Assembly (NCBI GenBank): GCA_021808405.1
Contig: JAKBBQ010000001.1
Location: 7,224-49,235, forward strand
Direction: 5' to 3'
Source of the DNA: Pseudomonadota bacterium
Lineage (GTDB): Bacteria; Pseudomonadota; Gammaproteobacteria; Burkholderiales; Burkholderiaceae_C
DNA: 42,012 nucleotides
Shown: one piece after another, positions 8,448 to 42,012 of the stretch
Position numbering within the stretch: the stretch's first letter is position 1
Layout of the letters: each line of letters begins with the position of its first letter
Position numbers and translations under genes: made by a program
The notes under the pieces: generated by a model
What the model saw: only the letters and a program-made list of their open reading frames with translations
Told to the model about the DNA's origin: nothing
Databases searched by the model: none

Positions 8448-10562
8448 ATGAATCTTTCCGTTGCGCTGCGCAGCCCGGCGCTCGACGATGCCGACCCCGA
8501 GCGCCTGCGCCAGCGCGTGCGCGCCGACTTCCACGCCACCTTCGACCGCTACGAACAGTTGTTCGAGGTCCTGCAAGGCGAGCAGGCCTATGTCGTCAAG
8601 CCGATCGCTTTGCGACACCCGCTGATCTTCTACCTCGGCCATACCGCGACCTTTTTCATCAACAAGCTGGTTCTGGCCGGCCTGCTCGAGCAGCGCATCG
8701 ACCCGCGCCTGGAGTCGATGTTCGCGGTCGGAGTCGACGAGATGAGCTGGGACGACCTCGACGACACCCACTACGACTGGCCTTCGTCGGCCGAGGTGCG
8801 CGCCTACCGCGATCGCGTGCGGGCCGTGGTCGACGAGTTGCTGTGCCGCATGCCGATGGGCACGCCCATCGGCTGGGACAGCCCCTGGTGGGTGGTGCTG
8901 ATGGGCATCGAGCACGAGCGCATCCATCTGGAGACCTCCTCGGTGCTCATCCGCCAGCACAAGCTGGAGTTCGTGCGGCCGCATCCCGCGTGGCCGCGTT
9001 GCCGCGACGCCGGCCCGGCGCCGGGCAACGACTGGGTGGACGTGGCCGCCGCCGACATGCGCCTCGGGCGCGACCGCGCGCGCCCCGGCTATTACGGCTG
9101 GGACAACGAATTCGGCGAGCAGATCGTGCAGACGGCGCCTTTTCGCGCGGCGCGCCACCTGGTGAGCAACCAGGAGTTCCTCGCATTCGTCGAAGCCGGC
9201 GGCTATGCCGACGATTCGCTGTGGAGCGACGAAGGCGCGGCGTGGCGCCGTTTCGCGCAGGCGCAGCATCCGAGCTTCTGGCTGCGCGACTCGGGGCGAT
9301 GGCAGCTGCGGCTGATGTGCGAAGTCGTGGACATGCCGTGGAACTGGCCGGTGGAGACCAACTTCCACGAGGCGCAGGCTTTCTGCAACTGGAAGGCCCG
9401 CCGCGACGGCCTTCCCGTGCGCCTGCCCAGCGAGGCCGAATGGCACGCGCTGCGCCACGCGGCAGGCATCGGCGACGACCCGCAGCCCCGTCCGGCGCCG
9501 GCCAACCTGGAGCTCGACCACTGGGCCTCGTCGTGCCCGGTCGACCGCTTCCGGCACGGAGACTTCTACGACGTCATAGGCAATGTCTGGCAGTGGCTGG
9601 ACACCCCGACCTACCCCTATGCGGGCTTCGAGGTGCACCCCATCTACGACGACTTCACGACCCCGACCTTCGACGACCGGCACAACCTGATCCAGGGAGG
9701 CTCGTGGATCTCCTGCGGCAACGAGGCGCTGCCTGCGTCGCGCTATGCCTTCCGCAGGCATTTCTTCCAGCACGCCGGGTTCCGCTATGTCTGCGGCGAC
9801 AAGCCCGCCGCGCCCGCGGCGTCGCAGTACGAAAGCGACGCGCTGGTCGCCCAGTACTGCGAGTTCCACTGGGGAGCCAGCTACTTCGACGTACCCAACT
9901 TCCCGCGGGCGGTGGCGCAGCTTGCGCTGCAGGCCATGGGAGCGCAGCCGATGCGCCGCGCGCTCGACCTCGGATGCGCGACCGGGCGCACGACCTTCGA
10001 GCTCGCGCGCAGTTTCGAGCGCGTCGTCGGCATCGATTTCTCCGCCCGCTTCATCGGCGTGGGCACGCGGCTGGCCGAGCAGGGGCGGGTACGCTACCAG
10101 CTCCTCGACGAGGGCGAGCTGCTGTCCTACCACGAGCATTCGCTGCAGGAGTACGACCTGCAGGATGCGGCGTCGAAGGTCGAGTTCGTGCAGGGCGACG
10201 CTTGCAACCTCAAGCCGCTGTTCAGCGGCTTCGACCTGGTGGTGGCGGCCAACCTGATCGACCGGCTGTACAGCCCGGCGCTGTTCCTGCGCGAGGTGCA
10301 CCGGCGCATCGTCCCCGGCGGGCTGCTGGTGATCACATCTCCCTACACCTGGCTGGCCGAGCACACGCGGCGCGAGGAGTGGATCGGCGGCTTCAAGAAG
10401 GATGGCGAGAACTTCACCACGCTGGACGGCCTGCAGCAGGTCCTCGGCGAGCACTTCGAGCGCGTCGCTGCGCCGCGGCAGTTGCCGTTCGTGATCCGCG
10501 AGACGCGGCGCAAGTTCCAGCACACCCTGTCCGAGGTCACGCTGTGGCGACGGCGCGCCTGA
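8448..10562 (+). CDS. ovoA: 5-histidylcysteine sulfoxide synthase OvoA with fused methyltransferase (ovothiol synthesis)
   Basis: OvoA is a non-heme iron enzyme that joins cysteine to histidine with O2 to give 5-histidylcysteine sulfoxide. Its fused methyltransferase later N-methylates the mercaptohistidine to yield ovothiol A. The 704 residues show a DinB-like N-terminal domain with iron ligands HERIHLE (H156, H160) plus an upstream His in HPLIFYLGH. An FGE/sulfatase-modifying-like domain follows (about 200-460, with NWPVETNFHEAQAFCNWK and NLIQGGSWISCGNEA). A C-terminal SAM-dependent methyltransferase carries ALDLGCATGRT near residue 505. The extra methyltransferase separates it from EgtB. 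No ovoB-like PLP lyase gene lies in the window. Confidence 0.93.
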   Translation: MNLSVALRSPALDDADPERLRQRVRADFHATFDRYEQLFEVLQGEQAYVVKPIALRHPLIFYLGHTATFFINKLVLAGLLEQRIDPRLESMFAVGVDEMSWDDLDDTHYDWPSSAEVRAYRDRVRAVVDELLCRMPMGTPIGWDSPWWVVLMGIEHERIHLETSSVLIRQHKLEFVRPHPAWPRCRDAGPAPGNDWVDVAAADMRLGRDRARPGYYGWDNEFGEQIVQTAPFRAARHLVSNQEFLAFVEAGGYADDSLWSDEGAAWRRFAQAQHPSFWLRDSGRWQLRLMCEVVDMPWNWPVETNFHEAQAFCNWKARRDGLPVRLPSEAEWHALRHAAGIGDDPQPRPAPANLELDHWASSCPVDRFRHGDFYDVIGNVWQWLDTPTYPYAGFEVHPIYDDFTTPTFDDRHNLIQGGSWISCGNEALPASRYAFRRHFFQHAGFRYVCGDKPAAPAASQYESDALVAQYCEFHWGASYFDVPNFPRAVAQLALQAMGAQPMRRALDLGCATGRTTFELARSFERVVGIDFSARFIGVGTRLAEQGRVRYQLLDEGELLSYHEHSLQEYDLQDAASKVEFVQGDACNLKPLFSGFDLVVAANLIDRLYSPALFLREVHRRIVPGGLLVITSPYTWLAEHTRREEWIGGFKKDGENFTTLDGLQQVLGEHFERVAAPRQLPFVIRETRRKFQHTLSEVTLWRRRA

Positions 10563-28639: not shown

Positions 28640-29872
28640 TCAGTCGCTGCGGCGTACCGGTGCCCAGGCGAAACGGCTGGCCCCGTCGGGCAGCGTGGCC
28701 GCGCAGCGGGCCAGGGCATCGAGGTCGGCGTCCTGCAGGCCGACCGCCTGCAGCACCTGCCGGGTGTGTTCGCCCAATTCGGGCGGCGGCAGCGTCGGCG
28801 CCGCCTCGGCCCCTGGCGGGCGCGGGAATTCCGGCACCTCGAAGTCCAGGCCGCGGTAGCGGATGTCGCGCAGCTTGCCGGGCTGGCGAGCCTGCGGCGC
28901 CTCGAGCACCCGCTCCAGCGGCAGCACCTCGGTGCAGCCGATCCCGGCCGCCTGCAACCGCGCCGCGGCCTCGTCGAAGGCCAGGCGCCCCAGCGCCTGG
29001 CGCACCAGCGCCTCGCAGCGATCGCGTTGCTTGCGGCGGTTGCGCAGGCTGGCCAGCTCGGGGTCATCGGCCTCGGCGAGCTGCATGGCGCGGCAGAACC
29101 TGTGCCAGTGGGAGTCGGTCAGCATCAGCAGGTACAACCAGCGCTGGTCGCTGCTCTGGTAGGCGCCGTAGCCCGGCATGCTGAACTCGCCATGGGGTTC
29201 GCGCTCGGGCCGCCCCAGCAGCCGGGTCTTGAGCTGCACGCCGACCAGGTCGCGCGAGGCCACGTGCAAGCCGGTCTCGTACAGCCCCACCTCGACCGCG
29301 GACGCCGGCTTGCCGGCAGCCTGCTGCAGCAGGCCGGCCAGCACGCCGATCACCGCGTAGGCGCCTGCGAACTGGTCGTGGTAGCTCGGCCCGAGGCGGC
29401 TCGGGCGGCCGTCGATGCGGTTTTGCTCCATCACCCCGGTGGCCGCTTCGGCGACCGGGTTGGACGCCAGGTCATCCTGCAGCGGTCCGCCCGCATAGCC
29501 GCGGATGTGGCAGTAGATCAGCGAGGGCTTGACGGCCCGGCAATCCGCCTCGGTCAGCCGCAGCTTGCGCGCGGCCCTGGGCGCGAGGTTGTGCACCAGC
29601 GCATCGGCGCTGTGCAGCAGCCGGCAGAACGCCGCGTGGCCCTCGGGCTGCGCCAGGTCCAGGCAAACGCTCTTCTTGCCGTGGCTGTAGGCGATGAACG
29701 TGCCGCTGGGGCCGCCTCGCACCAGCGCGCGGGTGGGGTCCCCGTGCGGCGGCTCGACCTTGATGACTTCGGCCCCAAGCTGGCCGAGCAGGTGCGCGGC
29801 GAAGGGCGCAGCCAGCATGGTGCCGACTTCGATGACGCGGCGGCCGGCGAGCGGGAGGGTCGATGTGTTCAT
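28640..29872 (-). CDS. Class III (CaiB/BaiF) CoA-transferase, MHS-linked
   Basis: The 410-residue enzyme begins with LAGRRVIEVGTMLAAPFAAHLLGQLGAEVIKVE, typical of family III CoA-transferases. The catalytic Asp aligns with D in SYHDQFAGAYAVIGVLAGLL. Such enzymes move CoA between acids, often from succinyl-CoA to a dicarboxylate. The ATG at 29872 lacks a Shine-Dalgarno sequence. The predicted promoter (TTGCCA-N17-TAGAAT) would give an almost leaderless transcript. It is followed by the MHS carrier on the same strand and diverges from the hydratase gene. The acid substrate is unknown. Confidence 0.88.
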   Translation of the reverse strand: MNTSTLPLAGRRVIEVGTMLAAPFAAHLLGQLGAEVIKVEPPHGDPTRALVRGGPSGTFIAYSHGKKSVCLDLAQPEGHAAFCRLLHSADALVHNLAPRAARKLRLTEADCRAVKPSLIYCHIRGYAGGPLQDDLASNPVAEAATGVMEQNRIDGRPSRLGPSYHDQFAGAYAVIGVLAGLLQQAAGKPASAVEVGLYETGLHVASRDLVGVQLKTRLLGRPEREPHGEFSMPGYGAYQSSDQRWLYLLMLTDSHWHRFCRAMQLAEADDPELASLRNRRKQRDRCEALVRQALGRLAFDEAAARLQAAGIGCTEVLPLERVLEAPQARQPGKLRDIRYRGLDFEVPEFPRPPGAEAAPTLPPPELGEHTRQVLQAVGLQDADLDALARCAATLPDGASRFAWAPVRRSD

Positions 29873-29876
29873 GGAC

Positions 29877-29884
29877 AATGCATT
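29877..29884. promoter_or_regulatory. AATGCATT operator-like site 1
   Basis: A perfect 8-bp palindrome. On the minus strand it reads TATAGAATGCATTG and overlaps the -10 box of the CoA-transferase promoter, so a bound protein would repress. Matching copies occur at 29985 and 30913. Confidence 0.5.
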
Positions 29885-29992: not shown

Positions 29993-30019
29993 TGTTGTCC
30001 CGTGAACGAGGAACTCCCG

Positions 30020-30859
30020 ATGACCCATCCCTACGCCGAGTGGCTGGGGCGCAGCGAAGAGTGCACCGAACGCCTGGGCGTCGGCGCGGTGCGCGCGCTG
30101 GCCGCGACGCTGGATCTGGAGGCCGCGCCGCAGCCGGGCCAGCCGCTGCCGGCGGGCTGGCACTGGCTGTACTTCAACCCCGTGGTGCGTCGCAGCGGCC
30201 TGGGTGCCGACGGGCACCCCAGGCGCGGGGGTTTCCTGCCGCCCATCGAGTTGCCCAGGCGCATGTGGGCGGGCGGACGCATCCGCTACCTGCAGGATCT
30301 GCCGGTCGACGCGCTGGCGACCCGGCGCAGTGTCATCCGCAGCATCGAACACAAGGCCGGCAAACGCGGCGCGTTGTGCTTTGTCACCGTCGAGCACACC
30401 GTGTCGTGCGGGGCAAGCGACTGCCTGGTCGAGGAGCAGGACCTGGTGTATCGCGAAGCGCCGCCGGCCGCGGCGCCGGCCGCGGCGCCCCAGCCCTTCG
30501 ACGGGGTCGCCCAGTTCGGCGACGACTTCGTCGCCGATACGACCCTGCTGTTCCGCTACTCGGCGCTGACCTTCAACGGGCACCGCATCCACTACGACCA
30601 GGCCTACGCCCAGGCCGAAGAAGGCTATCCCGGACTGGTGGTGCACGGCCCGCTGCTCGCCACCTTGCTGCAGCAACTGGCCCTGCGCCAGGCGGCGGGC
30701 CGCAGGCTGCAGCGCTTTGCCTTCCGGGGTGTCAACCCGGTCTTCGTCGACCGCCGCTTCCGCCTCGAAGGCAGGCAGGACCGGGAGGGCGAACTCGAAC
30801 TGTGGGCGCGCGGCCCCGCGGGAGAACAGTTGATGTCGGCCAGCGCCACGCTGGTCTGA
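30020..30859 (+). CDS. Mesaconyl-C4-CoA hydratase/HTD2-type hotdog hydratase
   Basis: This 279-residue protein matches the mesaconyl-C4-CoA hydratase (FAS1-like dehydratase) family. Its N-terminal part has PRRMWAGGRIRYLQDLPV. Its C-terminal hotdog domain has LTFNGHRIHYDQAYA and GYPGLVVHGPLLATLL, carrying the catalytic His. Characterised relatives hydrate mesaconyl-C4-CoA or itaconyl-CoA to citramalyl-CoA. The CitE-type lyase downstream fits as the next step. The ATG at 30020 is preceded by GAGGAA at good spacing. The GTG at 30002 used in the ORF track would start upstream of that site. Confidence 0.85.
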   Translation: MTHPYAEWLGRSEECTERLGVGAVRALAATLDLEAAPQPGQPLPAGWHWLYFNPVVRRSGLGADGHPRRGGFLPPIELPRRMWAGGRIRYLQDLPVDALATRRSVIRSIEHKAGKRGALCFVTVEHTVSCGASDCLVEEQDLVYREAPPAAAPAAAPQPFDGVAQFGDDFVADTTLLFRYSALTFNGHRIHYDQAYAQAEEGYPGLVVHGPLLATLLQQLALRQAAGRRLQRFAFRGVNPVFVDRRFRLEGRQDREGELELWARGPAGEQLMSASATLV

Positions 30860-30956: not shown

Positions 30957-32171
30957 TTGAACCACGTCACCAACCCCTCTGAATCCGGCGTCGGCGACGC
31001 CCCGGCGCAAGGCCTGATCACCGACGAAGCGGTGGCCGCGGCCCGGGCGATGATCGGCCTGCACCTGCGTCCCGAAGGCCCGTACCTGCAGGACGCCACC
31101 GCCGACACCTTGCGCAACTGGTGCAATGGCATCGGCGACCTCAACCCCCTGTACCGCGACCCGGGCTACGGGCCGGGCACGCGCTACGGCACCCAGGTCG
31201 GGCACCCGATGTTCCCCATGGCCTTCGGCTGGCTGGGGCGCACGCGCTGGGGGTTGCCGGGAGTCCACGGCTTCTACGCCGGAAACGACTGGGAACTGTT
31301 CCGCCATGTGCGCCCGGGCGACCGCCTGTCGGCGATCGAGCGGGTCGTCGGGGTGGAGGAAAAGCAGAGCAAGTTCTCCGGCCGACTGGTGCTGCAATAC
31401 GTCGAGGCCTGCTACTACAACCAGCGCGGCGAACTCGTCGCGCGCGCGCTGGGCACCTGCACCCGCCACGAGCGCAAGGCGGCGCGCGAAACCGGCAAGT
31501 ACAAGGAAATCACCCAGCATCAGTACAGCGACGAGGAGCGCGACCGCATCGACCAGATGGTCCTCGACGAGTCGAAGAACATCCGGGGCGCCGACGTGCG
31601 CTACTGGGACGATGTCCAGGTCGGCGAGTCCCTGCCGACCATCGCCCGCGGTCCGCTGTCCCTGATGGACACCATGGGCTTCCTCGTGGGCTGCGGCCGA
31701 GGCCATACCCACGGCGTGCTGCTGCAGGCGGCGGTGCGCCATCCCGGCCACTATTTCCGCAACCCGGAAGCCGGCGGCGGGGTGGAATACACCGGGATCG
31801 GCCACCACCGGGAATCGGTGGCCAAGGAAGTCGGGGTTCCCGGCACCTACGACTACGGCCCGCAGCGCTCGGCCTGGATGTGCAGCCTGGTCACCAACTG
31901 GATGGGCGACGCCGGCTTCCTCAAGCGGGTGCGCACCGAAATGCGCCGCTTCAACATCATGGGTGACACCACCTTCTGCAAGGGCACGGTGGTGCGCAAG
32001 TACGTCAAGGACCGGACCGCCCTGGTGGACATCGAGATCGCCGCCGAGAACCAGCGCGGCGAGGTCACCACGCCCGGCCTGGCCACCGTGGCGCTGCCGT
32101 CGCGCGACATCCGTCTGCCGGCGTTCCTCGACGGCGCAGGCTGCGACCTCGAGCTGCCGGTGGTGCGGTGA
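30957..32171 (+). CDS. Double-hotdog MaoC-family dehydratase/hydratase
   Basis: The 404-residue protein consists of an N-terminal MaoC-like domain (WCNGIGDLNPLYRDPGYG, residues about 52-70) and a C-terminal MaoC domain. The latter has GHHRESVAKEVGVPGTYDYGPQRSAWM and WMGDAGFLKRVR. In the N-terminal domain the usual GDxNPLH is GDLNPLY, a pattern of non-catalytic or variant halves, so catalysis is likely in the other half. Members hydrate or dehydrate acyl-CoAs. The start is TTG at 30957, with AGGAG 8 bases upstream and no better ATG. Its stop overlaps the next gene by 4 bases (GTGA). Confidence 0.82.
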   Translation: MNHVTNPSESGVGDAPAQGLITDEAVAAARAMIGLHLRPEGPYLQDATADTLRNWCNGIGDLNPLYRDPGYGPGTRYGTQVGHPMFPMAFGWLGRTRWGLPGVHGFYAGNDWELFRHVRPGDRLSAIERVVGVEEKQSKFSGRLVLQYVEACYYNQRGELVARALGTCTRHERKAARETGKYKEITQHQYSDEERDRIDQMVLDESKNIRGADVRYWDDVQVGESLPTIARGPLSLMDTMGFLVGCGRGHTHGVLLQAAVRHPGHYFRNPEAGGGVEYTGIGHHRESVAKEVGVPGTYDYGPQRSAWMCSLVTNWMGDAGFLKRVRTEMRRFNIMGDTTFCKGTVVRKYVKDRTALVDIEIAAENQRGEVTTPGLATVALPSRDIRLPAFLDGAGCDLELPVVR

Positions 32172-33352
32172 CCGCGAGCGCTGCGAGCCGAGCGGGCCCG
32201 GAGCGGCCGCCCGCACCGCCCGCGGCACTGCCGCTGGCCGGCTGCCGGGTGCTGGAGCGCTCGCGCAGCGTGGCGGCCGCCTACGCCGGGCGCCTGCTGG
32301 CCACGCTGGGAGCGCGCGTGCTGATGCTCGAGCCACCGGGCGGCTCGCCGCTGCGCCGCGCGGCGCCGCGGATCGAGCCCGGCGGCGAGAGCGCGCTGTT
32401 CGCCTACCTGGCCGCCGGCAAGCGCAGCCTGGAGTGCGACACCCTGTCGGACGCCGGCCGCCAGAGGTTGCGCCAGGAGTTGCAGGCCGCCGACCTGCTG
32501 CTCGACGACACCCCGCTGGCCGAGCGCGGCGCCCACGGCTTGCAACCGCAGCAGGTGGCCGAGTGCGCGCCCCGGCTCATCCATGTCAGCGTGCTGCCCT
32601 TCGGCGCCAGCGGCCCGAAGGCCGCCTGGGACGGCGAGGAAGTCAACCTGCTGCACGCGGGCGGCGAAGGCTACCTGCTGCCCAACGGCTACGCCCAGGA
32701 GCTGTTTCCCGAGCGGCCGCCGCTGAAGATCTACGGCCCCTTCGCCGGTTACCAGGGCGGCTGCCTGGCCGCGCTGAGCGCGCTGTCGGCCTGGTGGAAG
32801 GTCGACACCGAAGGCGGGCGCTTTGTCGACGTCTCGGTGCAGGACGCGGTGCTGGCGGTGGGGGCCTTCGCGCTGCAGCGGCTGGGCGACGGTTCGCTCG
32901 AGCACCGCGCCACCCGCAAGTTCCGCTATGGGGGGGTGTTCCAGGCGCGCGACGGCTTTGTCGAAATCCTCACCCTCGAGGACCGCCAGTGGGAAGCCCT
33001 GCTCGACTTGTTGCAGCGTCCCGCGTGGAGCGCCGACCCGGCGCTGCGCGACCCGCTGGAGCGCAGCCGCCGCGGCGACCAGATCAACCGGCATATCCGC
33101 GTATGGATGGCCGGGCAGGACGTCGACCAGGTGGTGCGGCGGGCGCAGCAGCTGGGCGTGCCGGCGGCCCGCTACCGCGCCCCCGAGGAGGTGCTGGCCG
33201 GCGAGCACGAGGCCGCGCGCGCGCTGTTCGCCGACATCGACCTGCCGGGCGCCGGCGCGGCGCGGGCGCTGCGGGCGCCCTACCAGTTCCTGCGCACCCC
33301 GCTGCCGGGTGGCGGCCGGGTGCCGCGGCTCGGTGAAGGAGGGCAGCCATGA
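32168..33352 (+). CDS. Class III CoA-transferase, subunit apparently lacking the catalytic Asp
   Basis: The 394-residue protein is of the CaiB/BaiF family (LAGCRVLERSRSVAAAYAGRLLATLGARVLMLE). Where active family members have Asp (in the next gene VMDHSAGLHAAL), it reads FAGYQGGCLAAL, so Gly appears to replace the nucleophile. It starts with GTG overlapping the MaoC stop, and its stop overlaps the next CoA-transferase start (ATGA). I infer a heteromeric enzyme with one catalytic and one structural subunit, for which succinyl-CoA:benzylsuccinate CoA-transferase (BbsEF) is a precedent for two family III subunits. Confidence 0.82.
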   Translation: MTASAASRAGPERPPAPPAALPLAGCRVLERSRSVAAAYAGRLLATLGARVLMLEPPGGSPLRRAAPRIEPGGESALFAYLAAGKRSLECDTLSDAGRQRLRQELQAADLLLDDTPLAERGAHGLQPQQVAECAPRLIHVSVLPFGASGPKAAWDGEEVNLLHAGGEGYLLPNGYAQELFPERPPLKIYGPFAGYQGGCLAALSALSAWWKVDTEGGRFVDVSVQDAVLAVGAFALQRLGDGSLEHRATRKFRYGGVFQARDGFVEILTLEDRQWEALLDLLQRPAWSADPALRDPLERSRRGDQINRHIRVWMAGQDVDQVVRRAQQLGVPAARYRAPEEVLAGEHEAARALFADIDLPGAGAARALRAPYQFLRTPLPGGGRVPRLGEGGQP

Positions 33353-34545
33353 GCCACCCGCCCGCGCTGCAGGGCGTGCGCATCGCCGACTTCACCATCC
33401 ACGCGGCCGGGCCCTTCTGCACCCACCTGCTGTCCCAGCTCGGCGCCCAGTGCATCAAGATCGAGAGCCGCGCCAGGCCCGATGCCTTTCGCAAGCCCCA
33501 CGCGGTCTACGGGCGCATGACCGCGGCGACCTTCGACCAGGTCTCGGCCAACAAGCTCTCGGTGCGCTTGAACCTCAAGCAAGCCGAGGCGGTGGAGCTG
33601 GCGCGCCGCCTGGTGGCGCTGTCGGACCTCGCCGCCGAGAGTTTCCGCCCCGGGGTGATGCAGCGGCTGGGCCTGGGCTTCGAGTCCCTGTGCGAGGTCA
33701 AGCCCGACCTGGTGATGCTGTCGCTGTCGGCGAGCGGGCAGTACGGCCCCGATTCGTACTTCGCAGGCTATGCCCCGCTGTTCGGCGCCTGGGGCGGGCT
33801 GGGCTGGATGAGCGGCTACAGCGACGGCCCTCCGGTGGAAATGCGCCATGTGATGGACCACTCGGCCGGGCTGCACGCCGCACTGGCCGCGGTGGCCGCG
33901 CTGCACCAGCGACGCCGCACCGGACAGCCCCAGCATGTCGACGTGGCCGCGCGCGAGGTCGCCTCGGCGATGATCGGCGATGCGCTGGTGCTGGCTTCGC
34001 TGGGCCAGATCGCCGAGCGCCCCGGCAACGCCGACCCCGGATTCGCGCCCTCGGGGGTCTACGCGACCGCCCAGCCGGACCGCTGGCTGAGCCTGGCGGT
34101 GCGCGACGATGCGCAATGGCAGGCGCTGTCGCGGGTCGTCGGCGAGGGTGCCGAGCGCCCGGAGCTGGCGCGGGCCGACGAGCGGCTGCGCCGGCGCGAA
34201 CAGGTCGACCAACTGGTGGGCGGCTGGCTGCGCCAGCGCGACGCCGATGCCACCGCGCGGGCGCTGCAGCAGCAGGGCGTCTGCGCCCATGTGTCGTGGA
34301 CCATGCGCGACATCGCCGGCGACCCCCACCTGCGCGCGCGCGGCGCGGTGGTCGAGGTCGGTTCGCCCGACATCGAGTCGCGCCCGGTGGTCGGCGCGCC
34401 GGTACGATTGGCCCATACCGAGGGAATGGGCATACGGCGCCTGACGCCGGCCCTGGGCCAGGACGAGGACTATGTATTCGGCGAACTCCTCGGGCTGTCC
34501 GCCGAGCAGCGCCGCGACCTCGAGCAGCGCGAGGTGATCTTTTGA
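33349..34545 (+). CDS. Class III CoA-transferase, catalytic subunit
   Basis: The 398-residue partner begins LQGVRIADFTIHAAGPFCTHLLSQLGAQCIKIE, and the expected nucleophile is D in RHVMDHSAGLHAALAAVAAL. Other family blocks are VSANKLSVRLNLKQAEAVELARRL and PQHVDVAAREVASAMIG. It probably activates a di- or tricarboxylic acid by transfer from succinyl- or acetyl-CoA. The ATGA overlap with the preceding gene supports stoichiometric assembly. The CitE-type gene follows after 52 bp. Confidence 0.87.
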   Translation: MSHPPALQGVRIADFTIHAAGPFCTHLLSQLGAQCIKIESRARPDAFRKPHAVYGRMTAATFDQVSANKLSVRLNLKQAEAVELARRLVALSDLAAESFRPGVMQRLGLGFESLCEVKPDLVMLSLSASGQYGPDSYFAGYAPLFGAWGGLGWMSGYSDGPPVEMRHVMDHSAGLHAALAAVAALHQRRRTGQPQHVDVAAREVASAMIGDALVLASLGQIAERPGNADPGFAPSGVYATAQPDRWLSLAVRDDAQWQALSRVVGEGAERPELARADERLRRREQVDQLVGGWLRQRDADATARALQQQGVCAHVSWTMRDIAGDPHLRARGAVVEVGSPDIESRPVVGAPVRLAHTEGMGIRRLTPALGQDEDYVFGELLGLSAEQRRDLEQREVIF

Positions 34546-34597: not shown

Positions 34598-35434
34598 ATG
34601 AGCCATGCGCGCGGCTGCGCGCCCGCGACCGCCGCGCTGGCCGGCGCGCGCAGCCTGTTGTTCGTTCCCGCCGATCGGCCCGAGCGCTTTGCCAAGGCCG
34701 CGGCCAGCGGCGCCGACTGCATCGTCCTCGACCTGGAGGACGCGGTGGCGCCGCAGTCCAAGGCGGCGGCCCGCGCCCACGCCGCGCAGTGGCTGGCCGG
34801 CGGCGGCGCGGCCATCGTGCGGGTCAACGCCGCCGACACGCCGTGGTACGAGGACGACCTGGCGATGCTGCGCGCAGCCCCCGCCGCTGCGCTGATGCTG
34901 CCCAAGGCCGACGCGGCCGCGCTGGAGCGCACCGCGACCGCGCTGCCCGGTCGCGAACTGGCGGCGCTGCTGGAAACCGTCGCCGGCTACTTCGACCTGC
35001 GGCGACTCGCCGCGGCTCCCGGCGTGGCCCGCATCGCCTTCGGCAGCGTGGACTTCGCCGCCGACACCGGGATCGTCGACGAAGGCGAGGCCCTGACTTC
35101 GGTGCGCACGTCGCTGGTGCTGGCCTGCCGCGCGGCGGCGCTGCCGCCGCCGCTGGACGGCGTCAGCCTGGAGCTCGACGACGAGCAGCGCATGCGCGAG
35201 GACGCGCTGCGTTCGCGCCGCCTGGGTTTCGGCGGCAAGCTGTGCATACACCCGCGGCAGGTCGCCGCGGTGCACCAGGCCTTCACCCCCGGTGCGCAGG
35301 AACTGCAGTGGGCGCAACGGGTGGTCGAGGCCTTCGAGGCTGGCGGCGGGGCGGCGATCGCCCTCGACGGGCGCATGGTCGACAAGCCGGTGGTGGACAG
35401 GGCGCGACGCCTGTTGGGGCTGGCGGGCCGCTAA
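34598..35434 (+). CDS. HpcH/HpaI (CitE-type) CoA-ester lyase
   Basis: The 278-residue TIM-barrel protein has the CitE/malyl-CoA lyase motifs RSLLFVPADRPERFAKAA, CIVLDLEDAVAPQSK, the metal ligand Glu in LLETVAGYFDLR, the metal ligand Asp in FGSVDFAADTGI, and FGGKLCIHPRQV. Relatives cleave citramalyl-CoA to acetyl-CoA and pyruvate, malyl-CoA to acetyl-CoA and glyoxylate, or citryl-CoA to acetyl-CoA and oxaloacetate. Beside a mesaconyl-CoA-hydratase-type gene, citramalyl-CoA lyase is the first guess. GGAGG precedes the ATG at good spacing. Confidence 0.87.
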   Translation: MSHARGCAPATAALAGARSLLFVPADRPERFAKAAASGADCIVLDLEDAVAPQSKAAARAHAAQWLAGGGAAIVRVNAADTPWYEDDLAMLRAAPAAALMLPKADAAALERTATALPGRELAALLETVAGYFDLRRLAAAPGVARIAFGSVDFAADTGIVDEGEALTSVRTSLVLACRAAALPPPLDGVSLELDDEQRMREDALRSRRLGFGGKLCIHPRQVAAVHQAFTPGAQELQWAQRVVEAFEAGGGAAIALDGRMVDKPVVDRARRLLGLAGR

Positions 35435-35539
35435 ACTCGGGCCGGCAAGGGCCTTGCGATGGGCAATGCTCGCCTCCCCCTGGCGCGGCGCGCGGCCGGC
35501 GAGTGCAGGCCGGCGCAGGCGCTCGCCCGCGAATCCCCC

Positions 35540-36175
35540 ATGGACTATCGCACCAAGGAAGAACAGGTCGCCGATTTCCTGCGCGAGCGCATCCTCTCGG
35601 GGGTCTACCCGCGCGGCTCGCGCCTGAAGCAGGCGCAGATCGCCGAGCAATTGCGCCTGAGCATCACCCCGGTGCGCGAGGCGCTCAAGCTGCTCGAGGC
35701 CGAGGGGTATGTCAGCGGCAATTCCTACCGCGGCGCGCGGGTGGTGCCCTTCGACCCCGCGGCCTCGGCCGAGATCCTGCAGTTGCGCCTGCTGCTGGAA
35801 GCGCAGTTGGTGCGCGAGGCGGTCGGCAACGCGACCGCCCGGGACATCGAGGATCTGCGCGCGCTGGCCGAGGAGTTTCGCGACGCCTTCGCCAGCGGCG
35901 ACCGGGCCGGCGCTCGCGGCATCAACTACCGTTTCCACCGCCGGCTGTACGACATCGCCCACCTGCCGCAGACCCTGCATTTCGTGCAGATCCTGTGGGC
36001 CAGGTACCCGTTCGACCTGATCAATGCCGTGCAGGGGCGCGGTGGCGACGCCGTGCGCGAGCACGAGGAGATCCTGCAGGCGCTGACCGCGGGCGACGTG
36101 GCCGCCGCCACGCTGGCGATGCGCAGGCATATCGAATCGGGATGGGCCGTGCTCAGGCAGTCGGCCCCCGGATGA
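35540..36175 (+). CDS. GntR-family (FadR/FCD subgroup) regulator
   Basis: The 211-residue protein has an N-terminal winged helix (YRTKEEQVADFLRERILSG, LKQAQIAEQLRLSITPVREALKLLEAEGY) and an all-helical FCD domain (about 78-205) with Asp/His positions that can bind metal and carboxylates. FadR-type regulators often sense the substrate of the adjacent catabolic operon. It is the leading candidate to bind the AATGCATT palindromes. I start at MDYRTKEE. The track start at 35459 adds 27 residues without homology. It lies 105 bp after the lyase gene. Confidence 0.86.
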   Translation: MDYRTKEEQVADFLRERILSGVYPRGSRLKQAQIAEQLRLSITPVREALKLLEAEGYVSGNSYRGARVVPFDPAASAEILQLRLLLEAQLVREAVGNATARDIEDLRALAEEFRDAFASGDRAGARGINYRFHRRLYDIAHLPQTLHFVQILWARYPFDLINAVQGRGGDAVREHEEILQALTAGDVAAATLAMRRHIESGWAVLRQSAPG

Positions 36176-36548
36176 GCACGGCTGCCCGCGGTCCTTCCGC
36201 GGCCGGATAGGGATTACCCCGCGCCCGCGACCGCCGGCGCCGCCGCGGCGGAGTCGCCCGTCTTTTTGCTGCGACGCGGCAGAAAAGACCGGATGCAGCA
36301 GAGCAAGCGCGCCTGCTGCGCCGCGCAAACCGGGGATTCGAAAGCGACGATCGGGGCATGCGAAGCATGCCGCGGCAGCGTGGGGTGATCGGAGGTTTCG
36401 ATCAATGCAGGGAAAAACGATTAACAGCAGGCCGGCCAGCCCACGTAGCATCCACATAGGTCAATGAAAGAATGAATGCCGGCGGTTTTCGCGGACAAGC
36501 CGAGATTCGGGCGAACGCCAGCCGGTGACCACAAACGAGGAGACAAGG
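36176..36548 (+). other. 373-bp control region between the GntR gene and the TRAP operon
   Basis: I see no gene here. The region holds four inverted repeats: CCGCGG-TCCTT-CCGCGG (36186-36202), an imperfect GTCTTTT...AAAAGAC hairpin with an inner CTGC/GCAG pair (36260-36289), the perfect GGCATGC-GAA-GCATGCC (36355-36371), and TGATCG-N7-CGATCA (36386-36404). The last overlaps the 12-mer shared with the tcu promoter. A drop in GC content from about 36395 to 36480 probably marks the TRAP promoter. The T-run after the second hairpin's left arm could help terminate the upstream transcript. Confidence 0.6.
36386..36406. promoter_or_regulatory. Palindrome and 12-mer shared with the tcu control region
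   Basis: TGATCG-GAGGTTT-CGATCA is followed by AT, giving GTTTCGATCAAT at 36395-36406, identical to 24561-24572. It lies about 145 bp upstream of the TRAP binding-protein gene. Confidence 0.45.
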
Positions 36549-37583
36549 ATGCGCAAGCGAGGCTTCCACTGGCTGCGGCCGGTGTTGCTGGCGGCGGGTG
36601 GCGTGCTCAGCGCCGCGGCGAGCCTGCCGGCACAGGCGGCGACCACCCTGGTGATCAACCAGTTGCTGCCTCCGGGCGACCCCTTCAACCAGCAGGTGCT
36701 GCGTCCGTGGGCGAAGGACGTCGAGCGGGTCACCGACGGCCGGGTGCGCATTTCGCTGCCCAACGCCCCGATGGCCGGCCCGGCGCAGCTGTGGAATGCG
36801 GTGACCGGGGACATTGTCGACGGCGCCTATGTGTTCAACGGCCTGTTGCCGAGGCAACTGCCCCTCGAGCAGGTCGCGGCGCTGCCCTTCGTCTCGGGCA
36901 CCGCCGCGGCGACCTCGGTGGCGTTGTGGAAGACCCACGAGAAATTCTTCGCGCGGGCGCCCGAGTATCGCAGCGTCAAGTTGCTGGCCTTGTTCTCCCT
37001 GCCCCCGGGCGAGGTGTTCAGCATGGCCAAGCCGATCGTCCATCCGGGCGACCTGCGCGGCCGGCGCATCTGGGCGCTGCCCGGGGTGCCGCAGCGCGTG
37101 CTGGTGCACAGCCACGCCGGGGTGATTTCCAGCCCGGCGGTGCAGGTCAGCGAACTCGTCGCCGGCGGTACCGTCGACGCGGTGGCGGGCATAGGCGACT
37201 ACAACGCCCGGGCCTTCAAGATCCTGGGCTACATGAAGTCGGAAACGGTCATCCCCGGCGGGCTGACGGTGCCCAGCTTCTCGCTGATCATCAACCGCGG
37301 CAAATGGGACTCGATCGCCCCGGCCGACCGCAAGGCGATCGAGGCCATCTCCGGGCTGGCCTTCGCCAGGCGCATGACCCTGATCACCCGGATCAACCAG
37401 CAGGCGCGCGAGCAGGCGCGCAAGCAGGGGGTGCGGATCCTGCAGGCTTCGCCGGCGCTGGTGGCCGAACTCAAGGGCTACGCCAAGCCGCTGTTCACCC
37501 AGTGGCTGGCTTCGGCGCGGGCGATGCATGTCGACGGGCCGGCGGCGCTGAAGTATTTCGAGTCGCGGGCGCAGGCGCACTGA
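36549..37583 (+). CDS. TRAP transporter substrate-binding protein (DctP type)
   Basis: The 344-residue periplasmic protein has a signal peptide (VLLAAGGVLSAAASLPAQA) and a DctP fold. Recognisable segments are PWAKDVERVTDGRVRISL, DLRGRRIWALPGVPQ with the Arg that usually clamps the ligand carboxylate, and ADRKAIEAISG near the C-terminus. It captures an organic acid for the QM membrane complex. The ATG at 36549 is preceded by GAGGAGACAAGG, a strong ribosome binding site, and this excludes the longer track start. The ligand is unknown, but the CoA genes upstream suggest a di- or tricarboxylate. Confidence 0.9.
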   Translation: MRKRGFHWLRPVLLAAGGVLSAAASLPAQAATTLVINQLLPPGDPFNQQVLRPWAKDVERVTDGRVRISLPNAPMAGPAQLWNAVTGDIVDGAYVFNGLLPRQLPLEQVAALPFVSGTAAATSVALWKTHEKFFARAPEYRSVKLLALFSLPPGEVFSMAKPIVHPGDLRGRRIWALPGVPQRVLVHSHAGVISSPAVQVSELVAGGTVDAVAGIGDYNARAFKILGYMKSETVIPGGLTVPSFSLIINRGKWDSIAPADRKAIEAISGLAFARRMTLITRINQQAREQARKQGVRILQASPALVAELKGYAKPLFTQWLASARAMHVDGPAALKYFESRAQAH

Positions 37584-37596
37584 AGCGGAGGCCGCG

Positions 37597-38127
37597 ATGC
37601 AGACGATGCAGGCCATGCGGGGGCCGGGGGGCGGGCTGCGCGCCCGGACGGTGGGGCTGGCGCGGCTGCTGCTGCGCACCGGGGTCGCGCTGAGCATGCT
37701 GGGGATCATGGGGCTGACCGTGGTCAACGTGTTCATGCGCTACGTGTTCGTGCGGCCGATCAGCGGCAGCGACGAGATGGTGCAGTTCATGCTGGCGCTG
37801 CTGGTGTTCTCGGCGTTTCCGCTGGTGACCGTCGAGCGGCGGCACTTTTCGGTCTCGGTGCTGGCGCGCGGCGCGCGCGGCTGGCTGAAGTTCGCCGGCG
37901 TTGCGCTGGAGCTCGCGGTCAGCGCGCTGGGCTGCGCGATCGTCACCTCGCAGCTGTACAGCCAGGCGGCGATGCTGGGCTCCGAGCAGATGACCACCAT
38001 GGTGCTGCAGCTGCCGCTGGCGCCGCTGAACTATGCGATGAGCGCCTTGTCCTCGCTGGCGTTCGTGGGGATCGTGGTGCTGCTGGCCGAGCATGTGCTG
38101 GGCGGCCGCTCGGGGGATGCGAAATGA
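37597..38127 (+). CDS. TRAP transporter small membrane subunit (DctQ type)
   Basis: The 176-residue protein has four predicted helices and the DctQ pattern VVNVFMRYVFVRPISGSDEMVQFMLALLVF. It forms the scaffold around the DctM transport subunit. It begins 13 bp after the binding-protein gene and ends in ATGA shared with dctM, so all three TRAP genes form one operon. Its N-terminal 20 residues are Gly/Arg-rich and not conserved, so the start could be slightly later. Confidence 0.9.
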   Translation: MQTMQAMRGPGGGLRARTVGLARLLLRTGVALSMLGIMGLTVVNVFMRYVFVRPISGSDEMVQFMLALLVFSAFPLVTVERRHFSVSVLARGARGWLKFAGVALELAVSALGCAIVTSQLYSQAAMLGSEQMTTMVLQLPLAPLNYAMSALSSLAFVGIVVLLAEHVLGGRSGDAK

Positions 38128-39416
38128 TCCTGCCGCTGCTGGGATTCGCGGTCGTGCTGGCGCTGGCCTTCCTGGGCGTGCCGCTGTGCTTTTCGATGCT
38201 CACGGTGGGCGTCGGGCTGTTCAGCCTGGTGCGCGGGCTGCACCCGGCGCTGATGATGGCCGGGCAGACGATTTCCGACCTGGCGATGAACGAGGGGCTG
38301 TCGGTGCTGCCGATGTTCATCCTGATGGGCGCGCTGATCTACAAGTCCGAGCTGGCCGAGGAGCTGTACGACGCGGCCTACGCGCTGGTGGGCCACAAGC
38401 GCGGCGGGCTGGCCTACGCGACGGTGCTGGCCAGCGCCGGCTTCGCGTCGATCTCGGGCAGCTCGATCGCCACCGCGGCGACGATGACCAAGGTGGCGAT
38501 GCCCTCGATGCGCCGGCTGCGCTACGACGACAGCCTGGCCAGCGGCTGCGTGAGCTCGGCCGGCACGCTGGGCGCGCTGGTTCCCCCCAGCGTGCCGCTG
38601 CTGATCTACGGCATCATCACCCAGCAGGACATCGCCAAGCTGTTCGTCGCCGGGGTGCTGCCGGGCATCCTGCTGGGCTCGCTGTTCATGGTGGCCATCT
38701 GGTGGACGGTGCTGCGCAACCCGGCGCTGGGCCCGGCGGGTCCCGCGCTGCCCTGGGGCGACCGGCTGCGGCGCATCGCCAAGGTGTGGCCGATCGTGCT
38801 GCTGTTCGCCATCGTCATGGGCGGGCTGTACAGCGGGATCTTCACCGCCAACGAGGCCGGGGGCATCGGCGCGGCCGGCGCGATGGTGTTCACCGCGCTG
38901 CGGCGCAAGCTGACGTGGTCGGTGCTCATCGAATCGCTGGTGGAGGCCGGGCGCACGACGGCGATGATCTTCGCCGTGGCCTTCGGCGGCATGGTGTTCG
39001 CCAACTTCGTCACCATGTCGGGGCTGACCGGCGGCCTGGTGTCGCTGATCGGCGGGCTGCACCTGCCGGTGACCGGGATCATCCTGGTGATCATGGCCGT
39101 CTACGTCGTGCTGGGCTCGATGATGGAGTCGATCTCCATGATGCTGCTGACGGTGCCGGTGTTCGCCGCGGTACTGGCCCCGCTCGGGGTGAGCATGATC
39201 TGGTTCGGCATTTTCGTGGCGATGATGATCGAGATCGGGATGATCCACCCGCCGATCGGCATGAACGTGTTCATGGTCAAGACCATGATGCCCGAGTTGA
39301 GCATCCGCACCATCTTCGCCGGCACCATCCCGTTCCTGGTGGCCAATTTCACCGCGCTGGCGCTGATCATCCTGTTCCCCGCCATCGCCACCTGGCTGCC
39401 CGCCTTCGCGCGCTGA
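38124..39416 (+). CDS. TRAP transporter large permease subunit (DctM type)
   Basis: The 430-residue protein has about 12 hydrophobic segments and the DctM signatures PMFILMGALIYKSELAEELYD, ASAGFASISGSSIATAATM, LGALVPPSVPLLIYGIITQQDIAKLF and IEIGMIHPPIGMNVFMVKTM. It carries the sodium-coupled transport path. It is 4-bp overlapped with the DctQ gene (ATGA). It completes a full TRAP system, and the operon ends here. Confidence 0.94.
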   Translation: MILPLLGFAVVLALAFLGVPLCFSMLTVGVGLFSLVRGLHPALMMAGQTISDLAMNEGLSVLPMFILMGALIYKSELAEELYDAAYALVGHKRGGLAYATVLASAGFASISGSSIATAATMTKVAMPSMRRLRYDDSLASGCVSSAGTLGALVPPSVPLLIYGIITQQDIAKLFVAGVLPGILLGSLFMVAIWWTVLRNPALGPAGPALPWGDRLRRIAKVWPIVLLFAIVMGGLYSGIFTANEAGGIGAAGAMVFTALRRKLTWSVLIESLVEAGRTTAMIFAVAFGGMVFANFVTMSGLTGGLVSLIGGLHLPVTGIILVIMAVYVVLGSMMESISMMLLTVPVFAAVLAPLGVSMIWFGIFVAMMIEIGMIHPPIGMNVFMVKTMMPELSIRTIFAGTIPFLVANFTALALIILFPAIATWLPAFAR

Positions 39417-39466: not shown

Positions 39467-39603
39467 ATCGGGGCCCATGCCGACTCGCCGGCGCATGAGC
39501 GCTGTGGCCGGATCGGGAGTCTGCGTGGGTTTTGTTGTCCGGGATCAAGCCTGCGGTGCCAACTGTCGCCAGAATGGAGCCCCGGCGACGTGCGGGAGGG
39601 CCC

Positions 39604-39632
39604 GCCGCAGCCTGCGGCGCCGCCGGCGGCGC
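39604..39632. repeat. Paired GC palindromes upstream of the hemerythrin-GGDEF gene
   Basis: GCCGCAG-C-CTGCGGC (39604-39618) overlaps the perfect 16-bp palindrome GCGCCGCCGGCGGCGC (39617-39632), which ends 18 bp before the ATG at 39651. No Shine-Dalgarno is seen in between. The two hairpins are mutually exclusive at their junction. Confidence 0.5.
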
Positions 39633-39650
39633 GACCATCCGACCCATTCC

Positions 39651-42012
39651 ATGAATGCGCAACTGCAAGGGCTGCAGTGGAGCCAGGCGCTGGCCACCGG
39701 GATACCGGAGGTCGACGAGCAGCACCGCGAGCTGCTGGACATTTTCAACCGGGTCGCGCTGGCCCAGGCGCAGGGCACGGGGTCGCAGCAGGCGGGTCGC
39801 TTGCTCGAATCCCTGGTCGAGTACACCCGCTACCATTTCCGCGAAGAAGCCCGGCTGATGCAGCGCTGGTCGATCGCCGAGTCGCATCGCGCGATGCACC
39901 TGCATGCGCATCGGAGTTTCACCCGTTTCCTGCACCGCGCCCAGGCACTGGCCGAGCGCCAGCCGGCCGACGTGATGGTCGACGTGCTGGCCTTCCTGGC
40001 GCAATGGCTGCTGCACCATATCGCCGGGGTCGACGCGCGCATGGCGCGGGAGGTGGGCGCCGCGCAGGGGGCGGCGCAGCCGCGCGCGCCCGGCACGAGC
40101 GACGATGCGCAACTCGAGCAGCTGGTGGAGGCGGTCAGCCAGTTGACCGACACGCTGGGGCAGCGCACCTTCGACCTGCTCGCGCAGCGCCAGCGGCTGC
40201 TCGACCTGCAGGGCTTGTACCGCGCGCTGCTGCGCTCCGGCGAGGTGCTGATCCAAAGCCGCAGCGAGCAGGAAATGCTCGCCAGCCTGTGCGCCAAGCT
40301 GACCCAGGAAACCCCCTTCCACGTGGCCTGGGTCGGGCGCCCCGGCGCCTCGCAGCTGTTCGAGGTGCTGGCCATCGCCGGCGAGGGGGCCGCGCAGGTG
40401 CGCCAGGTCCTTCCCCGTCTGTCCGACCAGCAGGCGGCGCCGGTCGTGGTCAAGGCGTGGAATTCGCGCCAGCCCGTGGTCTGCAACGACACCCTGGCCG
40501 ACGCGTCGTTGCAGCCGTTTCACGAGGGCTTTCGCAGCAACCAGTGGCTGGCCATCCTGGCGGTGCCCATCGTGCGCGAAGGCAGCGTCTGGGCGGTACT
40601 GACCTTTGTCGCGGCGCGTCGCCAGGTGTTCGACGAGCGCACCGTGGAGGTCTGCGGGCGCATCGCCGCGCTGCTGGGCTTCGGCCTCGACGAGTTCGAT
40701 CTCAAGAGCCGCATCCAGAGCCTGCAGGCGCAGGAGGCGCGCATGGCGCGCACCGACTCCCTGACCCAGCTGCCCAATCGCTTCGCCTTCGAGGAATACC
40801 TGCCGGCGGCGATCCTGCGTTCGCAGCGTCGCGGTCGCGCGCTGGCCGTGGGCATGATCGACCTGGACGACTTCAAGCCGGTCAACGACCGCTTCGGCCA
40901 CGAGGCCGGCGACGAACTGCTGCGCGCGGTGGCCGCGCGGTTGCGCGAGCGGCTGCGCGGAGCCGACTTCCTGGCACGCCTGGGCGGCGACGAGTTCGCC
41001 GTGGTGCTCGAGGACCTCGACGCCGGGCAGGTGCTGCAGCAGCTCGGGGCCGCCTTCAGGCGGCTGCACCAGGCGGTGGATCAGCCCTTCGCGCTGGGCG
41101 GCGAGGCCAGCGCCCGCATCGACATGACCCTGGGCGTGGCCATCTATCCAGCCGACGGAGTCGACGCCGACGCCTTGCTGCGCAAGGCCGACGTCACCAT
41201 GTACCAGGCCAAGCAGCACAAGGACCAGCGACCTCAGTGGTGGCGCATGAGCTCGGCGGCCGCCGAGGAGCCCCACTCCGAGGCGGCTCCCGATCCCTTC
41301 GGGGCCGAGTCGCGGGAACTGCTCGAAGGCCTGTGGGACAGCCTGGACAGCGTGGCCGAGCGCTTCGCGCTGCGCTTTCGCGGACATCTGCAGGCCTCGC
41401 CCGAGATGGCATCGATCCTGGCCAGCCTGGACGAACGACAGTTGCGCGAGCTGGCGTGCACCGAGGCCGCTCAGCTGCGCTTCCTGCTCGACCCCCGCAC
41501 CACCGCGCAGGCCGCGCAGAGCGACTGCGCGCGCCTGGGCACGGTCCACGCGTTGGTCGGCGTCTCGGGCGCCTGGATGACCCAGGCCCTCGGGCTGCTG
41601 CGCGAAGTGCTGCACGAGCACCTGGACGCCGCGGTGGTGACCGCGCGCACCCGCTACCGCACGCTGCGCGCGGTCGAGTCCAGGCTGCAACTGGTGCTGC
41701 AGGCCATGCTGCAGGCCATGCGGGGTGTGGCCGACAGCTACCAGGCCTACCTGACCCAGCCGTTTGCCGAAAAGCTGCTGTCCGGCGACGCCATCCAGGC
41801 CGAGCTGGATTCGCTGGCGGCGCTTCCCGGGGTGCGCGCCGCCGTGCTGTTCCGCCCGGATGCCGGCAGCCGCTTCCTCATCGAACAGGCTTCGGGCGCG
41901 ATCGCCCGCGAGCTGATCGAGGCCTTCGCCGCGCGCGAACTGCATCCCATGGTCGACCCCGGCCACGCCCGCGGCCAGGGGCTGGTGGCGCTGGCCTGCC
42001 TCGGCGAGCTGG
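39651..42012 (+). CDS. Hemerythrin-GAF-GGDEF protein with globin-sensor-like segment (3' truncated by window end)
   Basis: The frame is open from the ATG at 39651 to the window end (787 codons) and is missing from the ORF track because no stop is reached. Residues 1-130 form a bacteriohemerythrin domain with its ligand series: DEQHRELLD, YHFREEARL (HxxxE), HLHAHRSF and LLHHIAGVD (HxxxxD). A GAF-like domain follows (about 200-350), then a GGDEF domain with RLGGDEFAV near residue 446 and an RxxD inhibitory site (RGAD) before it. Residues 545-660 resemble globin-sensor domains, with GTVHALVGV carrying a candidate proximal His. A second GAF-like segment begins near 715. It should make cyclic-di-GMP under oxygen control. 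Confidence 0.85.
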   Translation, partial: MNAQLQGLQWSQALATGIPEVDEQHRELLDIFNRVALAQAQGTGSQQAGRLLESLVEYTRYHFREEARLMQRWSIAESHRAMHLHAHRSFTRFLHRAQALAERQPADVMVDVLAFLAQWLLHHIAGVDARMAREVGAAQGAAQPRAPGTSDDAQLEQLVEAVSQLTDTLGQRTFDLLAQRQRLLDLQGLYRALLRSGEVLIQSRSEQEMLASLCAKLTQETPFHVAWVGRPGASQLFEVLAIAGEGAAQVRQVLPRLSDQQAAPVVVKAWNSRQPVVCNDTLADASLQPFHEGFRSNQWLAILAVPIVREGSVWAVLTFVAARRQVFDERTVEVCGRIAALLGFGLDEFDLKSRIQSLQAQEARMARTDSLTQLPNRFAFEEYLPAAILRSQRRGRALAVGMIDLDDFKPVNDRFGHEAGDELLRAVAARLRERLRGADFLARLGGDEFAVVLEDLDAGQVLQQLGAAFRRLHQAVDQPFALGGEASARIDMTLGVAIYPADGVDADALLRKADVTMYQAKQHKDQRPQWWRMSSAAAEEPHSEAAPDPFGAESRELLEGLWDSLDSVAERFALRFRGHLQASPEMASILASLDERQLRELACTEAAQLRFLLDPRTTAQAAQSDCARLGTVHALVGVSGAWMTQALGLLREVLHEHLDAAVVTARTRYRTLRAVESRLQLVLQAMLQAMRGVADSYQAYLTQPFAEKLLSGDAIQAELDSLAALPGVRAAVLFRPDAGSRFLIEQASGAIARELIEAFAARELHPMVDPGHARGQGLVALACLGEL

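Follow-up and report, generated by a model that had tools for sequence, protein, structure and literature searches.

Here, we analysed a 42,012-nucleotide stretch of DNA (the window) from a Pseudomonadota bacterium, which carries on its plus strand two adjacent genes for family III CoA-transferase subunits, designated A and B. Subunit A (32168..33352, +; GTG start, 394 aa) and subunit B (33349..34545, +; ATG start, 398 aa) are both spanned over their full length by PF02515 (CoA_transf_3), with E-values of 4.5e-60 and 7e-89, respectively. The ATGA overlap of both genes, reported in the initial annotation, is present at 33349..33352 (+), where the stop of A meets the start of B. The best PDB sequence match of B is chain B of BbsEF (1.6e-51), and we predict B to be an active subunit of the BbsF type. 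A Foldseek search with the predicted model of A (pLDDT 79, pTM 0.76) retrieved family III CoA-transferase structures, a result that confirms the fold only.

The gene directly upstream encodes a 404-aa FAS1-like/MaoC-type hydratase-dehydratase (30957..32171, +; PF13452, 1.9e-17) and overlaps A by 4 nt; sequence comparison with the PDB yielded no solved relative of this protein. It is preceded by a 285-aa homologue of itaconyl-CoA hydratase of the Ich type (30002..30859, +; PDB 8khg, 1e-66) and by a divergently oriented third family III CoA-transferase with the catalytic Asp (28640..29878, −; PF02515, 2.5e-85). B is followed by a CitE-type acyl-CoA lyase (34598..35434, +), whose nearest relative is the itaconate-pathway lyase RipC/Ccl (PDB 8khl, 4e-56) and which scored 1.8e-50 and 172 bits against NF038242 (RipC/Ccl), below the cut-off of 375. 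A GntR/FCD transcriptional regulator (35459..36175, +; PF07729, PF00392) and a TRAP transporter, DctP-DctQ-DctM (36525..39416, +; PF03480, PF06808; DctQ assigned from its position), with predicted organic acid uptake function, complete the neighbourhood. Elsewhere in the window, we noted a 704-aa protein (8448-10562) with DinB, FGE-sulfatase and methyltransferase domains, which resembles the layout of the ovothiol enzyme OvoA by domain order only, as well as a protein combining hemerythrin, GAF and GGDEF domains (39477-42012), which runs off the window and shows a faint protoglobin-like match.

In the alignment, Asp170 of B (codon 33856..33858, +; VMDHSAG), the catalytic nucleophile, stands opposite Gly194 of A (codon 32747..32749, +; FAGYQGG), where active members of the family carry the catalytic Asp. 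The initial annotation had read the same two stretches, VMDHSAGLH as the retained nucleophile of the second gene and FAGYQGG as its counterpart in the first, and was right in both respects. Asp170 aligns with Asp178 of BbsF and is conserved in 76/76 B orthologues; Asp likewise occupies this column in 22/22 sequences of the third CoA-transferase. None of the 75 A orthologues has Asp there (0/75), the column being filled by Glu (36), Gly (14), Ser (10), Gln (7), Ala (6) or Cys (2), with Gly common in the subclade to which A of the window belongs. Within its own genome, A alone lacks the Asp, which is found in 16 of 17 family III ORFs, a count of search hits that includes a few fragments at contig ends. 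The earlier description of an ‘Asp-to-Gly’ change is thus correct regarding the absence of Asp, while a single change to Gly does not describe a column in which six residues occur. We also looked for an Asp elsewhere in the active site of A, the possibility against which the initial annotation had weighed its reading; the alignment of the 75 orthologues contains no replacement close to the column, so that neither misalignment nor displacement of the Asp accounts for its absence. On account of the variable position and the deep Asp-less clade, we also rejected a recent point mutation. Since no orthologue of A keeps the Asp and the residue varies, the sequences indicate an old loss of Asp as the defining event in A, after which the position appears free to vary. 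A is hence a member of family III by fold that lacks the catalytic Asp and is presumably inactive by itself.

But is such a subunit kept together with its neighbour? Relatives of A turned up at 78 loci when public genomes were scanned, and B lies directly downstream of A in nearly all intact ones. The adjacency extends over alpha-, beta- and gammaproteobacteria and Dehalococcoidia, and about 51 of the 72 inspected junctions have ATGA at the stop of A. In one metagenome-assembled genome (MAG), A and B form a single reading frame of 818-819 aa (L022:169-2625, −), which could be a genuine fusion or stem from misassembly. The FAS1/MaoC protein is encoded upstream of A in most loci (61-89% identity), in some with another gene in between. 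This most constant neighbour also shows the highest conservation within the module, with 75-89% identity in many cases (L026-L102). Two further arrangements were seen: a Dehalococcoidia MAG harbours two A-B-like pairs flanking a FAS1 gene (L100:5801-12403), and several betaproteobacterial MAGs have a third CoA-transferase gene after A-B, whose product shares about 33% identity with B (L066, L070, L074, L078, L083 and L088, at about 12-13.5 kb).

BbsEF, an enzyme of the toluene pathway with benzylsuccinate as substrate, is the closest known counterpart. The title of PDB entry 9FOL refers to the D178-CoA adduct of BbsEF; residue 178 of its chain B (BbsF) is Asp, and BbsE has no Asp at that column. 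In a maximum likelihood tree of 68 rows, for which BbsE and BbsF were taken from printed PDB alignments with some terminal residues missing, all first subunits including A and BbsE formed one clade (bootstrap/SH-aLRT 100/99), and all second subunits including B and BbsF formed the other (100/98). Within the clades, the branching orders largely mirror each other. The likeness to BbsEF, which the initial annotation had pointed out, thereby proves to be homology: because A clusters with BbsE and B with BbsF, each with a bootstrap of 100, A-B represents a branch of its own within the lineage of BbsEF-type heteromers. Grouping of Asp-less subunits by their long branches was considered; the careful 68-row tree retained both clades, although some model bias may persist. 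Searches with BbsE led to 13 further tandem pairs, and in 13/13 the first subunit lacked the Asp and the second carried it. Single-gene relatives recovered in these searches had Asp with one exception (L131): a BbsE-like protein of the first-subunit type that carries Gln at this position and for which the locus yielded no partner.

The genes surrounding A-B belong to an island, annotated copies of which are found on plasmids of Cupriavidus, Agrobacterium, Salipiger and Qingshengfaniella. These copies encode a further CoA-transferase, an ABC transporter, an SDR, a 3-hydroxyisobutyrate-dehydrogenase-like protein, a lactonase-type protein, a GntR regulator and an isochorismatase-family hydrolase in addition to the FAS1/MaoC protein, A, B, the Ich-like hydratase and the CitE-like lyase. 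In the window, the island is reduced and has transporters of the TRAP and MFS types. A literature search for a paper describing the island found none. The lactonase-type proteins suggest that a lactone is opened; they have two unrelated folds, SMP-30 in Cupriavidus and a metallo-beta-lactamase fold in alphaproteobacteria (L104-L109). In Pseudomonas, itaconate is degraded by a cluster encoding Ict, Ich and Ccl, in which the CoA-activating enzyme derives from one gene (PMC12290011, PMC9875883) and which includes a lactonase for fungal 2-hydroxyparaconate (PMC9875883). The A-B island resembles this cluster in having homologues of its hydratase and lyase beside A-B and a lactonase in several copies, but differs by its two CoA-transferases, one of them encoded by two genes, and by the extra 404-aa hydratase-like protein. 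Because the island encodes counterparts of itaconyl-CoA hydratase and of the associated lyase, we tentatively propose branched dicarboxylic acids as substrate class; to name itaconate derivatives of the 2-hydroxyparaconate kind as candidates is speculation. Membership of BbsEF in the same clade would instead favour a bulky aryl- or alkyl-succinate over a small branched C5 acid, an assignment to which we give slightly less weight, as the neighbours resemble the itaconate pathway and benzylsuccinate genes were seen in none of the copies inspected. At A-B, the FAS1/MaoC, Ich-like and CitE-like proteins and the transporters take the place of the benzylsuccinate operon context.

If the two subunits share one working pocket per heterodimer, one expects constraint on the Rossmann domain of B and the small domain of A along with relaxation of the remaining two domains, and this is the pattern that we observed. 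Mean column entropy of the Rossmann domain was 1.37 in A versus 0.76 in B (p = 1e-10), while that of the small domain was 1.14 in A versus 1.72 in B (p = 2e-5); these p-values treat columns as independent and overstate the certainty. The third CoA-transferase, presumed to be homomeric and employed as control, had low entropy in both domains (Rossmann 0.87, small domain 1.09). Entropies were derived from separate alignments of the same 72 loci, a joint alignment showed the crossed pattern as well, and domain borders were set by aligning to published structures. The crossed conservation fits one composite active site, built from the Rossmann domain of B and the small domain of A, and would be compatible with the earlier suggestion that the Asp-less subunit shapes the pocket. 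Among 14 heterogeneous BbsE/F-like pairs the crossed constraint was not reproduced, the small domain of the first subunit being less conserved, for which mixed substrates could account; we thus claim the pattern for the A-B subfamily only. A predicted model of the A-B fusion, computed from 11 sequences, was weak (pLDDT 66, pTM 0.68); larger alignments placed A rows on the wrong half.

Flanking the position of the lost nucleophile, subunit A has, in addition, an A-specific loop (residues 163-187, HAGGEGYLLPNGYAQELFPERPPLK; 32654..32728, +) with the motif HxGGEGYLxPNGx5FPxRxPxK, in which H163, E167, P172, N173, G174, P181 and R183 are invariant (75/75). The loop includes an insertion of 7 residues that neither B nor BbsE nor the other pairs have. 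Asp114 is present in 75/75 A orthologues as well, at a position occupied invariably by Asn in single-chain enzymes. Owing to this invariant loop, A appears specialised rather than decaying, and with invariant residues in its Rossmann part it may have a pocket that is more than just vacant. Such residues, together with the absence of the motif from BbsE and the other pairs, could be taken as signs of a site rebuilt around Asp114, H163, E167, PNG 172-174 and R183 for binding of a second ligand, regulation or a different reaction, in which case the heteromer would have two different sites instead of one live and one dead site. We consider this improbable, as the Rossmann domain of A is overall less conserved than that of B, the same position is Asp-less in all related pairs without the motif, and the poorly predicted loop may simply reach the site of B or the centre of the dimer. 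Least probable of all, with hardly any credence from our side, is that A and B are separate enzymes, B an ordinary homodimer with A as degenerate or unrelated passenger: B does have the active-site Asp and resembles single-chain enzymes, and adjacency by itself proves no complex, but A is kept beside B across phyla with a strongly conserved small domain, the junction is usually overlapping and fused once, and the related BbsEF is a solved two-subunit enzyme.

Hence, we propose with considerable confidence that A and B interlock into a heteromeric family III CoA-transferase of the BbsEF type. We infer the complex, the facing of its domains, the mechanism, the donor and the substrate as follows. 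B would contribute the Rossmann domain with the nucleophile Asp170, and A, devoid of a nucleophile, the small domain that closes over the site of B, giving one working active site per heterodimer. As in other family III enzymes, catalysis would proceed via an anhydride between the acyl group and Asp170 and then a thioester of Asp170 with CoA, the latter probably donated by succinyl-CoA. The acid activated might be a branched dicarboxylate such as itaconate, methylsuccinate or a 2-substituted succinate; the two hydratases would act next, before the CitE-type lyase cleaves the product. Our results suggest that heteromers with a catalytically empty subunit represent an old and widespread branch of family III rather than a curiosity of toluene degraders, and the crossed conservation predicts from which half of A and of B the site is built. 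A-B would also mark an uncharacterised catabolic island with a relationship to itaconate degradation, which is often carried by plasmids.

Several known systems invite comparison. SptAB consists of two subunits as well. It resembles A-B in being a family III enzyme, a succinyl-CoA:phthalate CoA-transferase, whose gene name carries the two letters A and B (cited in PMC11659651). Formyl-CoA transferase, YfdW and mesaconyl-CoA transferase share the fold and the position of the nucleophile with A-B but, unlike A-B, are homodimers with an Asp in each chain. BbsEF, like A-B, has two homologous family III subunits and the catalytic Asp in the second only. Its sequences are nevertheless distant (BbsF is at most 37% identical to the B rows compared, BbsE lower), BbsE is devoid of the invariant loop carried by A, and its genes reside in a benzylsuccinate beta-oxidation operon, whereas A-B is part of an island with hydratases and a CitE-type lyase. 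A heteromer with one Asp-less subunit is thus already known from BbsEF, and here it occurs in a different, unstudied gene set.
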